A stretch of 46,526 bases of DNA, from NCBI GenBank assembly GCA_021828805.1, contig JAJZCZ010000006.1:1-46526 (forward strand), read 5' to 3'. The notes below the pieces were generated by a model. It saw only the letters and a program-made list of their open reading frames with translations. It was not told the origin of the DNA and made no database searches. Positions 15,417-21,380 of the stretch are shown in pieces. A program made the position numbers and the translations under genes. This DNA is from Nitrospirota bacterium. GTDB taxonomy: Bacteria > Nitrospirota > Leptospirillia > Leptospirillales > Leptospirillaceae. Positions within the stretch are counted from its first letter, which is position 1; every line of letters starts with the position of its first letter.

Positions 15417-15925
15417 TCAACCCGGCAAATCGCGATCGCGAAGCGGCCCTCTCCTATATCGAACGGTATTTTCTTCCCAGTTCGGCCCTGCTGGGTATGG
15501 TGGGCATGGGGGGGCTCTTTCTCCTGTCGACCTTCCAGTGGCAGCGCCACACGCTCACCGTCCCGGCCTTCACCCGGGAGATGACAATCGGTCTGATGGC
15601 CGGCCTTCTCTCCCTTCTTCATGCCCGCTACCAGTACTTCATCCTCGAGACCTTCCCCCGCCACTACGCAGAGCTCGCCTCCCGGGCCGACCGGATGGTC
15701 CTTTCCCGCCCTGCCGCCATCGTTCACCCCCGGCGCCGTCAGGTGGTAATCGGGTATGTGGCCGGGATCCTCTCCTTTGTTGTTGCGATCGCCCTTCTCC
15801 ATCGGGGAGTCTCCTGGATCGGAGTTGTCTCCTTCGCCATGGCGGGATTTTTTATTACCCGGGTTGTCTTTTGGAAAAAAGTGGTCGAGACGGCCCGCAT
15901 GAATGCTGATGGAGGTGGAAAATGA
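15413..15925 (+). CDS. Uncharacterised four-helix membrane protein in the cobalamin operon
   Basis: A 170-residue protein of no family I recognise. Four hydrophobic segments are visible: roughly residues 25-43 (ALLGMVGMGGLFLLSTF), 56-73, 112-130 (VVIGYVAGILSFVVAIALL) and 136-155. A basic, polar loop with HPRRRQ lies between the second and third. There is no signal peptide, Cys pair or His cluster suggesting metal transport. It starts ATGA over the cobI stop and ends ATGA into cobM, so it is translated in lockstep with corrin-ring enzymes. ATG 15413 is chosen for this overlap. A cobalt, corrinoid or unrelated transport role is possible but not shown. Confidence 0.75.
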   Translation: MINPANRDREAALSYIERYFLPSSALLGMVGMGGLFLLSTFQWQRHTLTVPAFTREMTIGLMAGLLSLLHARYQYFILETFPRHYAELASRADRMVLSRPAAIVHPRRRQVVIGYVAGILSFVVAIALLHRGVSWIGVVSFAMAGFFITRVVFWKKVVETARMNADGGGK

Positions 15926-16749
15926 CGGGGATTCCCCTGCGGGAGATCCGCCCGGGGGTGGTCTATTTTGTGGGGGCCGGTCCCGGGGCCCCTGACCTCC
16001 TGACCGTCCGGGCCGCGCGCCTGCTTGAGGCGGCCCAGCTTGTGGTCTTTGCCGGGAGTCTTGTGCCGGAGGGGACGATGCGGGAGCTGTCCCCCCGGGG
16101 AGTCTGGGTTGACTCGGCGGGGATGACCCGGGAGGAGATCGTGGAGGCCCTGGCCCGGTCGGCGGAAAAAGGCGAAATTGTGGTCCGGTTGGCCTCGGGA
16201 GATCCCTCCATCTTCGGCGCCATGGCCGAGATGACCACGGCGCTGGATGACCGGGGAATTTCCTGGGAGGTTGTTCCGGGAGTGAGTTCTGTTTTTGCCG
16301 TGGCGGCGGCCCTTGGCATGGAGCTCACCCTCCCCGAGGTCAGCCAGACGGTCATCCTCACCCGCACCGCCGGCCGGACTCCCATGCCGGAGGGGGAGGA
16401 TCTCGTCTCTCTGGCCTCCCATGGCTCCACCCTGGTGGTCTTCCTCTCCATCGACCGTATCGGGGAGCTCGTGGCGGATCTCCTCAAGGTGCGCCCCCCC
16501 TCCACCCCCGTGGCGGTTGTTGCCCGGGCGAGCTGGGAGAACGAGCGGATCTGCCGGGGGACCCTTGAGACGATCGAGTCTGAGGTGAAAAAGGCCCGGA
16601 TCATGCGCCAGGCGCTTTTTGTCGTGGGACGTGTTCTCGACCCCGAGCTCCGGAGAGCGGCTCGAAGCCGGCTTTATGCTGCCGACTTCACTCACGGATT
16701 CCGGGAAGGAAGCATCGCCTCTGCAGACCCCGGTACTCCAACGAAATAA
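15922..16749 (+). CDS. cobM: Precorrin-4 C11-methyltransferase
   Basis: A 275-residue tetrapyrrole methylase. VYFVGAGPGAPDLLTVRAARL, VVFAGSLVPEG, VRLASGDPSIFGAM and EVVPGVSSVFAVAAALGMEL match CobM/CbiF, which moves a methyl group from SAM to C11 of precorrin-4 or cobalt-precorrin-4. It is the last gene of the rightward run that starts at glyQ. Its final 58 bases overlap the convergent GGDEF/EAL gene, so the two transcripts are complementary at their ends. Aerobic versus anaerobic route cannot be decided here. Confidence 0.9.
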   Translation: MTGIPLREIRPGVVYFVGAGPGAPDLLTVRAARLLEAAQLVVFAGSLVPEGTMRELSPRGVWVDSAGMTREEIVEALARSAEKGEIVVRLASGDPSIFGAMAEMTTALDDRGISWEVVPGVSSVFAVAAALGMELTLPEVSQTVILTRTAGRTPMPEGEDLVSLASHGSTLVVFLSIDRIGELVADLLKVRPPSTPVAVVARASWENERICRGTLETIESEVKKARIMRQALFVVGRVLDPELRRAARSRLYAADFTHGFREGSIASADPGTPTK

Positions 16750-19166
16750 CCCTGCCCCAGCGTTACCCCGCACGAGATCGCCATATCAAGAGACGCCTGA
16801 TCTTCGATTCCTTCTCCCACCGTCTTGATCCCCAGTGATCGCGCCAGGCTCACGATACTGTGGACGATGGCCAGATCCACCGTGCTTCCCCGTCCGGCTC
16901 CCAGGATGAAGGGGCCGTCGATCTTCAGGTAGTCCACCGGAAATTCCCGAAGATAGTGGTGAGACGAAAATCCCGCTCCGAAATCATCAATTGAAAAGGA
17001 AAACCCCAGAGTTTTCAGCTCCCGGATAAGGTTTTCCACGATGCGCACGTTCTTGATGGCCTGCCGTTCGGTGATCTCGAAGGCGATACGATGGTTGGCA
17101 ATGGCGGATTTGTTGACGATATCCACGATCCGGTTGGCAAAATCGGGGGCAGCCATGCCGTAGGGGGTCATGTTGAAGAAGAGGGTGCCTGAGAGCCCCC
17201 GTTCTGTGGCGATCGTCAGAGCCTTTTCCAGAATCGAGAAATCCATGGATGCCGCCAGGCCTGCCCGCTCCACAATGGAGATGAACTCCCCGGCGGTGAC
17301 GATCTTGCCATCGTCATCCTGAAGACGTGCCAGTACTTCATATCCCGTGACCGTCTGTGCTGAAAGGTCCATGATGGGCTGGAAGTAGGGAAAGATCCGG
17401 TCGCTTCTGACCAGATCCAGAAGGTGCGCCTCCCGCTGTCCGGCGGTATGGAAATGAGTGGCCTCGCCCGGGTCGGGGACGCGGTAGGTATTCTTTCCTG
17501 CCTGCTTGGCTTTGTACATCATGCGGTCGGCGAGCGAAAAGAGGTCCTGGGCGTTTGAGGCATGGTCCGGGTAGAGGGCGATCCCGATGGAGATCGAAGC
17601 CTCAATGAGGGGTTGTCCCGCTTCCTCCGGCTCCATCCGGAAGAGGGAGATCTTTTCCCGGATCCGGTCGACGATGGTCGTAGCTCCGGCGAGGTCCACC
17701 TCCGGGAGGACAAAGGCGAACTCGTCTCCTCCATAGCGTGCGAGGATGTCTCCCTGCCGGGTTTCCGAAAGGAGGATTGCGGCCATTTCCTTGAGAAACC
17801 TGTCTCCGGTGGCGTGTCCGAAACTGTCATTGATCCGCTTGAAGTCATCGAGGTCGACGACACAGACCGCAAAGGAGTTGTCGTGGCGGCTGGCACGCCC
17901 TACCTCGTACTCCAGAAGCTCCCAGAAGACCCGCTGGTTGAAGAGGCGGGTCAGGGGATCCCGCACGGCATAATATTCGATCTCCTTGTTGTAAAGAGAC
18001 AGCGCCTTCACCGATCCGAGCACATTGAGGATAGAGACGAGAAAGCCGCGGACCACCAGTTTGCGAATGGCATCGGAGCGGGTTCCGGCCAGACCCACAC
18101 CGACAATGCCGCCGATCTGTGGACGATCGAGAAGAAGGCTTTCTGTTTCGAGGACGATGGAGTCTTCCGGGTGGGTCTGGGGCGGCGTGGGGGTGGTGGC
18201 CACTTCATGGAAGAAGGTGAGCTGTTTTTCCTCGGGGAGCAGGGCGTGCTCCCGGACCCGCCGGTCGATCGACTCCTCAAAGTAGCGCAATTCATTTGGA
18301 GTGGGCGCCCCGTTCCAGAAGACATGAAGTTCGTAGATCTCCTCGGGGCTGACAAAGAGAGAAAAAAGAAATCGTACGGGAAAGGTGTGGTTGATCTGAA
18401 GAAGAAGATTTTTGGTGAATTCCTTCCACTCCCGGATGACGTCGGAGGTGATGAGGAGCTTCTTGGTCAGGTCGACTTCAAATTCAAGGGTCTTGAGAAA
18501 TCCGATCGAGCGCTGTTCGAGAAGCATAAAGGAGATGAGGAGGGCCAGAAAAAGAAGGAAGGAGGCGTTGAGGACGAGAGCCCGTCGATGCCGGAGGATC
18601 AGTCCCTGCTCCCGGAGGTGGCTCTCCTGGGCGTCGATTTGCCGGCCAAGAGTGAGGATGAGTCCGTACATCCGGGAGGAGAGGGCCCGGGGGATGATCG
18701 CCGAGCCTGTGGATGCCTTCTTCTTGAGGATCGCTTCGATATTCTGGATCGAGGTATAGACAAAGAGGGAGTTCAGGGCATGAACATTACGGGCCTCCTC
18801 GGACAGGAGGTTGCTTGAGAGTTGCTGCATGCTTGCGAGAGAGGTGATGGCCTGAACCTGATAGCCGCGGAAGAGAGAGCGCTCGGAAGCAGAGAAGGGG
18901 GTCCGGGCCTGAACCATGACAAAAAGAGAGGCAGAGACCGAGCGAAGGTTATTCTTCACGTCGCGATAATGGGCGGCGGTACGGGCGAGATGGCGGAGCT
19001 CCGTGTTGGTGCTCAAAAAGAGCGCAACATTTGTCAGGAGAATGATGCCGGCCGCTATCGACAACACGATTGTTGTCCGCAGGAGAGAGCGGGTGGCCTG
19101 GCCAGGATGTTCGAGATCCTGGAGGATCCGGGATGCCAGTGCCGTTTTCTTCTTCAGTAACTCCAT
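16692..19166 (-). CDS. Membrane-bound GGDEF/EAL c-di-GMP enzyme
   Basis: An 824-residue protein. Two membrane helices (about 29-51 and 198-217) enclose a roughly 145-residue helical periplasmic sensor. A cytoplasmic region of about 190 residues with GAF-like features follows. The GGDEF domain (YGGDEF, 479-483) has RQGD five residues before it, so synthesis and product inhibition are both plausible. The EAL domain reads EVL at 610-612 but keeps the catalytic Glu, FEITERQ, DDFGAGFSS, LKIDGPF, GEGIED and QGYFVG. ATG 19166 has GGAGAG at good spacing. The gene ends inside cobM on the opposite strand. A palindrome at 19204-19218 lies just upstream. Confidence 0.93.
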   Translation of the reverse strand: MELLKKKTALASRILQDLEHPGQATRSLLRTTIVLSIAAGIILLTNVALFLSTNTELRHLARTAAHYRDVKNNLRSVSASLFVMVQARTPFSASERSLFRGYQVQAITSLASMQQLSSNLLSEEARNVHALNSLFVYTSIQNIEAILKKKASTGSAIIPRALSSRMYGLILTLGRQIDAQESHLREQGLILRHRRALVLNASFLLFLALLISFMLLEQRSIGFLKTLEFEVDLTKKLLITSDVIREWKEFTKNLLLQINHTFPVRFLFSLFVSPEEIYELHVFWNGAPTPNELRYFEESIDRRVREHALLPEEKQLTFFHEVATTPTPPQTHPEDSIVLETESLLLDRPQIGGIVGVGLAGTRSDAIRKLVVRGFLVSILNVLGSVKALSLYNKEIEYYAVRDPLTRLFNQRVFWELLEYEVGRASRHDNSFAVCVVDLDDFKRINDSFGHATGDRFLKEMAAILLSETRQGDILARYGGDEFAFVLPEVDLAGATTIVDRIREKISLFRMEPEEAGQPLIEASISIGIALYPDHASNAQDLFSLADRMMYKAKQAGKNTYRVPDPGEATHFHTAGQREAHLLDLVRSDRIFPYFQPIMDLSAQTVTGYEVLARLQDDDGKIVTAGEFISIVERAGLAASMDFSILEKALTIATERGLSGTLFFNMTPYGMAAPDFANRIVDIVNKSAIANHRIAFEITERQAIKNVRIVENLIRELKTLGFSFSIDDFGAGFSSHHYLREFPVDYLKIDGPFILGAGRGSTVDLAIVHSIVSLARSLGIKTVGEGIEDQASLDMAISCGVTLGQGYFVGVPGSAEAMLPSRNP

Positions 19167-19203
19167 GTCTGGCTCTCCATGGAAAGATCGTGGTCTGAAA
19201 GCA

Positions 19204-19218
19204 GGGAGACGGTCTCCC
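19204..19218. promoter_or_regulatory. Palindrome upstream of the GGDEF/EAL gene, possible operator
   Basis: GGGAGAC-G-GTCTCCC is a 7-bp perfect inverted repeat with one central base, 38 bases upstream of the start codon at 19166. No T-run follows on either strand, so it is not a terminator. A repressor site or leader hairpin is possible. Confidence 0.3.
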
Positions 19219-19698
19219 TGGGAGGCTCCTGTGCCCCTACGATGGGGTGGGGAAGGGAGGATGAGTCCTTCTCTCTTGAAAGACGCAAAGGAATCGCTGC
19301 CCGATTCATCCCGGGAGAAGGTCCGGTTGTGGCCCGGAAGGAAGGCTCAAATCCCCGGGCTTTTGCTTGGAGCTCATGCCGATCCCGGTGTCGGAGACGG
19401 CGATGTTCAAGAGTTCGGAAATGGGTTTGGGAGAAATAAATATCTTCCAATCATCGCTGAATTTTTATGTATTTTCAAGGAGGCTGATAATGGTCTGCCG
19501 ATGGAGCCTCCGCTCCCCGCCGACAGGAGAGGGGACGGGGCCGGGTAGGGCAACATGCTTGCGGGAGGAGTTGCAGGGCAACCGTGCCGTTGATTTTGCC
19601 GGCCGGCACAAGCAGCAAGACAGTGTTTCTGGCGTGGCGGTACAGGAGCGTTCCGGGATTTTTCCTGAAAAATGGAAGATATCGGGGGAGAGAGCAAG
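19219..19698. other. Gene-free stretch between divergent genes
   Basis: About 480 bases upstream of the repeat cluster hold no frame with a good ribosome binding site or recognisable product. One further GTTTC lies at 19625-19629. The rest is unexplained. Confidence 0.5.
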
Positions 19699-19699
19699 G

Positions 19700-19820
19700 T
19701 GTTTCATGAATGTTTCGTTATGCTTCTCCGGTGAAACCCTGCGTTTCTTTTGTGAAACATCGGGGGAGTCTCTGAAAACGGGGGTCCCGAAAAAGTCTCC
19801 GGATTATCATGATGTTTCGT
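19700..19820 (+). repeat. Cluster of helically phased GTTTC/GAAAC repeats, candidate enhancer sites
   Basis: Six copies of GTTTC or its complement GAAAC occur at 19701, 19712, 19733 (complement), 19743, 19754 (complement) and 19814. The first five are spaced 11, 21, 10 and 11 bases apart, that is on one face of the helix. The pair at 19743-19758 forms the inverted repeat GTTTCTTTTGTGAAAC. The extended form is near TGTTTCRT. They lie 26-143 bases upstream of the sigma-54 site, where enhancer-binding activators usually bind. Confidence 0.6.
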
Positions 19821-19843
19821 GTGTCCCTCTTGTTTTTCCTTCA

Positions 19844-19859
19844 TGGCATGATTTGTGCT
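19844..19859 (+). promoter_or_regulatory. Sigma-54 (RpoN) promoter of the acyl-ACP desaturase
   Basis: TGGCATGATTTGTGCT matches the -24/-12 consensus TGGCACG-N4-TTGCW with GG and GC exactly 12 bases apart. The mismatches are T for C at position 6 and G for T at position 12. The predicted start is near 19870, giving a leader of about 90 bases. A row of phased repeats lies upstream. Confidence 0.7.
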
Positions 19860-19960
19860 TAAAGACAACGTTCATGATTCAGTGGGGAGGCTCTGTCTCC
19901 TGCCTCTTTTGCTCCTTTATCCACTCCAAGCGGGCCTTTGGTCTGTAGTGAAGGAAAAAC

Positions 19961-20794
19961 GTGCGTCTTCCTCTTTCTGTTTTGCGCGACCATGTCACAA
20001 CCTATAACGAGCTGGCCGATGACGCCAACTGGAATCGCTTCAAGTCTCTTTCATGGAAGGATCTCAATCCCGGCCTTTTGACCGAAGGACAAAAACAGGC
20101 CGTTGTCTTTGTGACCCATGTGGAGGACTATACCCCCGGATACTGTGCCGAATACCAGTCGATCTTTCCCGTTAATGCGCCTTCTTCTCAGGAGGCGATG
20201 CACAATCGGGAACTTTTTCACTTTGTCTCGCGCTGGGGGCTTGAAGAGGATCGGCATGCCCAGGCGCTGGCCCTCTATCAGGTTCACTCCGGGATCGAAG
20301 CTGACTGGGACAGACTCTCGGAGACGCTGATCCTGGAGAGCCAGAAGGAGTACCAGGTCGGGTACAAAAATCTCCTTCAGGTCACTACCTACGCATTTCT
20401 TCAGGAGAAGGCGACCCAGCTCTATTACCAGAGCCTGGCCCGGAATGTGAAGGAGCCGGTTCTTGTCAGTCTTCTGCATCTGCTGACAAAGGATGAGTCC
20501 CGCCACTTTGTCTTTTTTTCCCGGATCGTTTCCTCTTACTTTGAAGAGTTTGGGCTCGACTGTCTTCCCCTGGTCGAAGAGGTGGCAGTGAACTACCGGA
20601 TGCCGCTTCACAACACCATGAGTGATTACCGGCGCCGCGCGATACGTATGGCCCGCGAGGCCCCCGGTTACGATCGGGCCCTTCCTGTCCGCAACCTTTT
20701 CCGGTTTCTTGAGGAGATTGGTGCGGAGAGGCCCGAATGGCTTCCCGAGATTAACGCCTCGATCGGCCGGATGAAAGACCACCTTCGCATGTAG
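19961..20794 (+). CDS. Acyl-[acyl-carrier-protein] desaturase (ferritin-like di-iron)
   Basis: A 277-residue soluble protein with the two di-iron motifs of acyl-ACP desaturases, EEDRH (95-99) and DESRH (178-182), about 80 residues apart in a helical protein. Plant-type desaturases use O2 and reduced ferredoxin to place a double bond in ACP-bound acyl chains, changing membrane fluidity. Chain-length and position specificity cannot be read from sequence. The start is GTG 19961 with AAGGA at 19951-19955; no ATG gives a better fit. It is a single-gene unit with a sigma-54 promoter, which is an unusual control for a desaturase. Confidence 0.85.
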   Translation: MRLPLSVLRDHVTTYNELADDANWNRFKSLSWKDLNPGLLTEGQKQAVVFVTHVEDYTPGYCAEYQSIFPVNAPSSQEAMHNRELFHFVSRWGLEEDRHAQALALYQVHSGIEADWDRLSETLILESQKEYQVGYKNLLQVTTYAFLQEKATQLYYQSLARNVKEPVLVSLLHLLTKDESRHFVFFSRIVSSYFEEFGLDCLPLVEEVAVNYRMPLHNTMSDYRRRAIRMAREAPGYDRALPVRNLFRFLEEIGAERPEWLPEINASIGRMKDHLRM

Positions 20795-20807
20795 CCCTCC
20801 CCCCCGA

Positions 20808-20845
20808 GACCCCCCCAGGGGGTCCCCCTGTCTTCTTTGCTTTTC
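20808..20845 (+). terminator. Weak terminator-like hairpin after the desaturase gene
   Basis: GACCCCC (20808-20814) and GGGGGTC (20818-20824) form a 7-bp stem with a CCA loop, 14 bases after the stop. The following tract is pyrimidine-rich but not a clean T-run. Confidence 0.4.
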
Positions 20846-21380
20846 CCCCCTTACATCTCTTCGGGTGCCCGTCTCTTCCGGGTACCCGCCTCTTTCTCCC
20901 GATTTCTCGAGGAAAGTCTTCTTTCACTTTCTCCTTATTTTTCTTCGACTTTTTTCATTCATTGAGCGGCGCTCCCTGTGGTGGCAGGAAAAGAGTGAAA
21001 TTTTCTTTTTTCTCTGGATGTTGACAGTTGGTAAAAATTAAGCAAACAAACTCGGTGCCTTAGAAGGATATTTATGTAAATATTTGTTATTGCTATATTT
21101 TTTTATTGGCTTATCACAGGGAGGGCAGTGGAAAAGCTGTGGAAAATGCTGTGGAGGCCCTTCTCCAACTCATCATCATCTTGGTCGGAGGAGCGTTTTG
21201 GCCATAAATTGGTCACTTCCGTTTTTCCCCGGAGGGGAGCGTTAGAGACACTTCTCAATGGGCACAGAGGGGATTCCGGGGCCCTCTTTCCCTTGAACTC
21301 ACCCTCTGAAAAAAACGATGATAGGAGGGCATGAAAAAAGAATGAGATCTCAGGATAGGAAAGGTCGGGATGGGAGAGAA
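20846..21380. other. AT-rich gene-free stretch upstream of cobQ
   Basis: This stretch is far more AT-rich than its surroundings around 20990-21120. It holds TTGACA at 21021-21026 (no clean -10 at 16-18 bases), the palindrome ATATTTATGTAAATAT at 21068-21083, a long T-run near 21098, and a near-repeat GTGGAAAAGCT / GTGGAAAATGCT at 21128-21150. TGTGGAAAA at 21138-21146 is one base off a DnaA box complement. A 68-codon frame from GTG 21128 is possible but unconvincing. No cobalamin riboswitch core was recognised. Confidence 0.5.

Follow-up and report, generated by a model that had tools for sequence, protein, structure and literature searches.

The desaturase gene and its surroundings

The window, by which we mean the whole 46,526-nt stretch of DNA analyzed here, carries on its forward strand (positions 19961-20794) a gene for a 277-aa protein of the di-iron acyl-ACP desaturase family. 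The protein matches the Pfam profile PF03405 (9.4e-14, 51.4 bits against a curated cut-off of 22.7), has two (E/D)ExxH di-iron motifs (EEDRH at residues 95-99 and DESRH at 178-182) whose ligands show no variation across 21 homologues, and has a structural relative in M. tuberculosis DesA2 (PDB 1za0). These features place it in the acyl-ACP desaturase family, and desaturating activity is predicted for it. The GTG start codon is preceded by AAGGA (19951-19955, forward strand), read in the sequence as the likely ribosome-binding site, and five orthologous loci (L001 and L004-L007) keep GTAGTGAAGGA in this role.

Terminator-like hairpins lie 3' of the gene (20816-20888, forward strand), suggesting a single-gene transcript; they come from a consensus scan alone, in which five such hairpins were seen against 3.5 by chance. 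The predicted 5' leader contains another terminator-like hairpin, GGGAGGCTCTGTCTCCT, followed by CTCTTTTG (19884-19901), which is possibly an attenuator or a chance occurrence. The divergent upstream neighbor encodes a GGDEF-EAL protein (PF00990, PF00563; 16692-19166, reverse strand) that starts 535 nt from the repeat array described below. In L004-L007 and L017 another gene takes its place upstream, namely the last part of a reading frame that corresponds to window positions 15922-16749, so the GGDEF-EAL gene is probably outside the system. An Rfam scan of the window found nothing apart from one tRNA gene (RF00005, 26508-26581, forward strand).

A sigma-54 promoter preceded by phased inverted repeats

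A preliminary description of this DNA had placed a TGGC-N8-TGC site upstream of the desaturase, and the site is indeed there, at 19844-19858. Its GG-N10-GC core (19845-19858) has the canonical -24/-12 spacing, and this spacing together with conservation identifies TGGCATGATTTGTGCT (19844-19859, forward strand) as a sigma-54 promoter element, with a -12 element that reads GTGC instead of TTGC (G for T at the first base). The desaturase transcription start is predicted to lie near 19870. The same genome encodes one RpoN and six full sigma-54 activators.

Farther upstream, all six GTTTC or GAAAC pentamers previously listed, at 19701, 19712, 19733, 19743, 19754, and 19814, were recovered exactly. 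The 171 nt from 19700 to 19870 thus hold six pentamers where 0.9 are expected, a count reached in 0 of 5000 dinucleotide shuffles, and nowhere in the 46.5 kb window are pentamers denser than in this stretch and an overlapping one from 19625. The commonest half-site spacing is 11 nt start to start, GTTTC then GAAAC (22 of 69 neighboring pairs), which makes the operator a 16-bp inverted repeat; the consensus drawn from 22 operators reads GTTTC-N6-GAAAC. Three such units can be recognized on the forward strand of the window. Unit 3 (GTTTC-TTTTGT-GAAAC, 19743-19758) is a perfect inverted repeat 85 nt before the -24 element and is predicted to be the main activator dimer site. Unit 2 (GCTTC-TCCGGT-GAAAC, 19722-19737) differs from the consensus by one mismatch, being completed by a degenerate half-site, GCTTC, at 19722, and unit 1 (GTTTCATGAATGTTTC, 19701-19716) matches in its left half-site and not in its right. 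The unit starts (19701, 19722, and 19743) step by exactly 21 bp. A similar layout is found in L001 and L002, where a one-mismatch unit precedes the perfect unit by 20-21 bp, as window unit 2 does, and tandem GTTTC pairs stand at places comparable to unit 1.

Across promoters, operators that depart from the consensus at no more than one base have centre-to-centre distances of 20, 21, 21, 22.5, 22.5, 32, 32, 41, 41, 41, 42, 42, and 43 bp. At a period of 10.5 bp their mean phase is 0.07 with R=0.87, and taking one distance per promoter group gives R=0.90 (p about 0.0075), with periods of 10 and 11 fitting almost equally well. The helical phasing proposed earlier is therefore upheld, but the phased elements are dimer-type inverted repeats at intervals of about 21, 32, or 42 bp and not single pentamers in a row. 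Nor does the sixth pentamer (19814-19818, forward strand) belong to the array as had been supposed: this isolated GTTTC has no counterpart in orthologous promoters, and is probably a chance match outside the system. The predicted activator sites, GTTTC-N6-GAAAC units about 70-140 nt upstream, lie at looping distance.

Conservation across relatives

We compared the locus with metagenome-assembled genomes of the Nitrospirae/Leptospirillum group. The preliminary description had called for a search for the array and the -24/-12 site upstream of desaturase orthologues, and both were found in every genus relative with an intact gene, with a weaker form of the promoter and GTTTC/GAAAC sites in sister genera. 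TGG-N9-TGCW occurs in 10 of 10 genus orthologues, the nine besides the window (L001-L008 and L017) each having a TGGYAYG-N5-TGCT-type element. Across the family, 12 of 14 orthologues have one or more GTTTC-N6-GAAAC units that are perfect or contain a single mismatch, and the family orthologues hold 18 units in all, against 0.47 in shuffles. Two sister-genus promoters have half-sites and no N6 unit; strong sigma-54 elements are present in the sister-genus loci L071 and L074, and TAGC replaces TGGC in L072 and L073.

The DNA around these elements has diverged. With the nearest three relatives, coding identity is 80-86% and intergenic identity, after gapped alignment, 63-68%, with local intergenic matches confined to short stretches. 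Among orthologues, 87 to 200 nt separate promoter and start codon while the enhancer-to-promoter distance stays similar, and even in L002, which has the full 200 nt, that distance is unchanged; selection therefore acts on the module as a unit. A second desaturase of these genomes (upstream regions L009-L020 and L077) has a conserved TATAAT-like element, and 12 of 12 of these paralogue promoters lack operator units. From its sequence this gene looks constitutive, and the two desaturases look like a housekeeping and inducible pair.

The suggestion of a sigma-54 promoter with phased activator sites thus gains from conservation, from RpoN and the six activators, and from the sigma-70-type promoter of the paralogue as a negative control. 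We are highly confident that the desaturase promoter is of the sigma-54 type with an enhancer, and RpoN dependence is predicted.

Candidate activators

Among 19 activator loci retrieved by similarity across the family, 12 have GTTTC/GAAAC sites at the activator stop codon, and at most of these a sigma-54-like element comes next, followed by a peptide of 37-45 aa ending GGxGGF or GGIGTF. In G004 and G006, the array lies directly 3' of the activator gene and is followed by a 43-aa peptide with a single transmembrane segment. The order in G001, all in the same direction, is activator, array, small peptide, and desaturase, which physically links activator and desaturase. At some loci the activator coding sequence runs into the first repeat, so coding constraint contributes there. 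The -12 element reads TTGAT in L106-L109. Conserved single-transmembrane peptides behind activators were seen in the L097:1501-2898 region and in L098, L099, L103, L106-L109, L118, and L184.

The activators of this class have a C-x8-C-x3-C motif in a PAS region and recognition helices reading SR[IV]TLWR[KH]MK or GRSTLWRKLR. The recognition helix of E. coli PrpR, GISRTTFWRRLKS (SRTTFWRRLK), resembles this R-x-T-L-W-R pattern, and the published PrpR enhancer is CGTTTCATGAAACG, in which the half-sites have an N2 spacer, GTTTC-N2-GAAAC (PMC4987338). This enhancer and the half-sites of the prp promoter are the main reason for assigning the GTTTC/GAAAC code to the R-x-T-L-W-R helix class. The activator of the desaturase is probably a cysteine-PAS protein with a PrpR-like recognition helix that would bind these operators.

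Of the six activators in the window genome, L023 alone has an R-x-T-L-W-R helix, those of the others being unrelated, and is thus the best candidate there; in both this genome and G011 (L132), the only such activator found is a type with GRSTLWRKLREM. Since L023 lies on contig C115, unlinked to the regulon and with no array nearby, we consider the case for it as the specific activator evenly balanced. The window genome, which is 78% complete, has no closer homologue of the linked activators in its assembly, and one may be unassembled.

Other genes preceded by the module

In the 1.88-Mb genome to which the window belongs, TGGCAYR-N5-TGCW sites number only eight and GTTTC-N5/6-GAAAC repeats only three. 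Two of the three repeats precede two of the eight sites, at the desaturase and at C122:8948, and random placement would give both pairings with a probability of about 3e-7; the third repeat (L030/L078, at C97:306) does not coincide with any of the eight. C122:8948 precedes a gene for a 283-aa exported protein with no Pfam match, which ends FVF like outer-membrane barrels.

Regulon searches used sequence patterns only. Family-wide, the tight combined module gave 11 matches, against one for the reversed pattern. These include the desaturase, the outer-membrane-like protein (G009 and G011), and an operon in G008 and G011 where the gene of an A-type Fe-S carrier (PF01521) comes after that of a 65-aa zinc-ribbon protein. 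A looser pattern was only modestly above its reversed control, and from it we kept members with an explicit -24/-12 element: in G002, a 75-aa zinc-ribbon frame followed by an A-type Fe-S carrier, as in G008 and G011, and in G008 and G009, an exported protein of about 188 aa with TGGCACAGSGATTGCT. Since members were found by pattern, their pattern match is not independent evidence, but the gene identity shared across species is. In total, the module with a sigma-54 element at enhancer distance stands before five unrelated gene types. The zinc-ribbon protein (L187, L185, and L181; 65-75 aa), encoded in a sigma-54 operon with the A-type Fe-S carrier, had no Pfam match where tested.

In genus g4 (L157 in G005:C35 and L158 in G006:C54), a GTTTC-N6-GAAAC repeat also overlaps a promoter of the TTGACA type that belongs to another 43-aa membrane peptide, so the activator might serve as a repressor as well, or work at sigma-70 promoters.

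Alternative explanations

Single pentamers are common, with 83 in the window, and a cluster of them could arise by chance in AT-rich intergenic DNA. We give this practically no weight, as the pentamers are conserved where the intergenic DNA around them has diverged, and the shuffle tests also speak against it. An unrelated repressor or nucleoid protein might instead bind the pentamers, with transcription coming from an undetected sigma-70 promoter. The g4 repeats at a TTGACA-type promoter do imply that the motif is able to act without sigma-54. However, the repeats co-occur with sigma-54 elements, at enhancer distance, before five unrelated gene types, and a consensus scan of the forward strand from 19150 to 21330 found no sigma-70-like promoter, leaving this explanation quite unlikely.

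The identity of the activator allows a closer contest. Recruitment of a PrpR-type propionate (2-methylcitrate) response to the desaturase is suggested by half-sites identical to those of the PrpR enhancer (PMC4987338), by the E. coli prp promoter, in which one GTTTC and four GAAAC at 10-12 bp spacing are followed by TGGCACACCCCTTGCT, and by one site in L003 that is exactly GTTTCATGAAAC. We find such recruitment very unlikely, because the PrpR N-terminal sensor domain is present in 0 of 7 activators scanned (the six of the window genome and the linked type), because the operator spacer is N6 and not the N2 of PrpR, and because none of the genes found downstream of the module is one for propionate. 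N6 repeats dominate (n=22), with one N2 site, in L003. PrpR itself was rejected on the same grounds, agreeing in half-sites and disagreeing in sensor domain and spacer. A real sigma-54 promoter served by a different activator, either the linked type missing from the draft or a response-regulator activator, holds a substantial minority share of our confidence. Most relatives have the linked type beside their arrays, and a genome that is 78% complete leaves room for one to be missing. On the other hand, the linked type is absent from G000, G008, and G011 alike (78, 69, and 88% complete), a coincidence of about 0.8% if the absences are independent, and the response-regulator activators have unrelated recognition helices.

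Relation to known systems

The GlrR operator is TGTC-N10-GACA; GlrR/QseF was rejected as a candidate, its operator being alike in length (18 bp including the flanking T and A) but different in half-sites and in recognition helix. The GTTTC-N6-GAAAC consensus of 22 operators matches neither the GlrR/QseF operator nor that of NtrC (TGCACC...TGGTGCA; PMC4987338). PrpR and prpBCDE of Escherichia coli and Salmonella share with the present system a sigma-54 promoter and GTTTC/GAAAC half-sites 10-12 bp apart, and differ in having an N2 operator, a sensor domain of their own, and propionate catabolism as the target.

In Bacillus subtilis, sigma-54 (SigL) and the AAA+ activator BkdR affect membrane fatty-acid composition, but through branched-chain precursor supply instead of a desaturase, and with other activator sites. 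DesR and DesT regulate fatty-acid desaturation, as is proposed here, but to our knowledge neither does so with sigma-54 or an AAA+ activator. We found no description of sigma-54 control of a desaturase promoter in the full text of open-licence papers. Sigma-54 regulons, PrpR-type half-sites, and desaturases are each known separately, and their combination was not found in that literature. The earlier impression that no such system had been described holds, within that literature, for the combination; the half-sites are known and are those of PrpR (PMC4987338). Sigma-54 has been described as a controller of the bacterial exterior (Francke et al. 2011, PMC3162934), in a paper where neither desaturases nor Leptospirillum appear in the text; the targets here, a lipid enzyme, an outer-membrane-like protein, and an exported protein, fit this envelope theme.

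Proposed mechanism and signal

We consider it likely that a sigma-54 promoter, dimer-bound operators, a cysteine-PAS activator, and a small regulon together explain the locus. The enhancer-binding protein would combine a PAS domain with cysteines (C-x8-C-x3-C), an AAA+ domain, and a helix-turn-helix of the Fis type. It would bind as dimers to GTTTC-N6-GAAAC operators that lie 85-143 nt upstream of the -24 element and are spaced by two helical turns. Looping of the DNA would carry its AAA+ ring to the RNA polymerase-sigma-54 complex at TGGCATG-N5-TGCT, and desaturase transcription would then begin near 19870. The outer-membrane-like protein, the exported protein, the zinc-ribbon and Fe-S carrier operon, and the small membrane peptides would be co-controlled.

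Aerobic di-iron desaturases require O2 and reduced ferredoxin. An O2-dependent desaturase and an Fe-S carrier in one regulon, with cysteine-PAS activators, suggest redox, oxygen, or iron-sulfur sensing, and the likeliest input would be an envelope signal of this kind, although we advance a redox or Fe-S signal only tentatively. A role for desaturase control in membrane fluidity is likewise something we infer.

Taken as a whole, there is about an even chance that the Leptospirillum family has an undescribed sigma-54 regulon in which cysteine-PAS activators, acting through PrpR-type half-sites, couple desaturation to changes in the outer membrane, to the supply of Fe-S clusters, and to tiny membrane peptides encoded with the activators, with a redox or oxygen signal as the probable input. 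With operator, promoter, candidate activators, and further targets named, this regulon is directly testable. This acid-loving, iron-oxidizing family seems to have brought its membrane composition into a regulon under signal control; if so, a major chemolithotroph lineage of acid mine water has placed membrane unsaturation behind an ATP-driven, signal-gated promoter. For a large class of activators that is poorly assigned, it would also provide a testable DNA code, in which GAAAC is read by an R-x-T-[LF]-W-R helix. Adaptation of L. ferriphilum to NaCl was accompanied by a 10-fold fall in a sigma-54 dependent regulator and a 4.9-fold rise in a desaturase, which may be another than the one studied here (PMC9053815); the rise fits a role in envelope stress.
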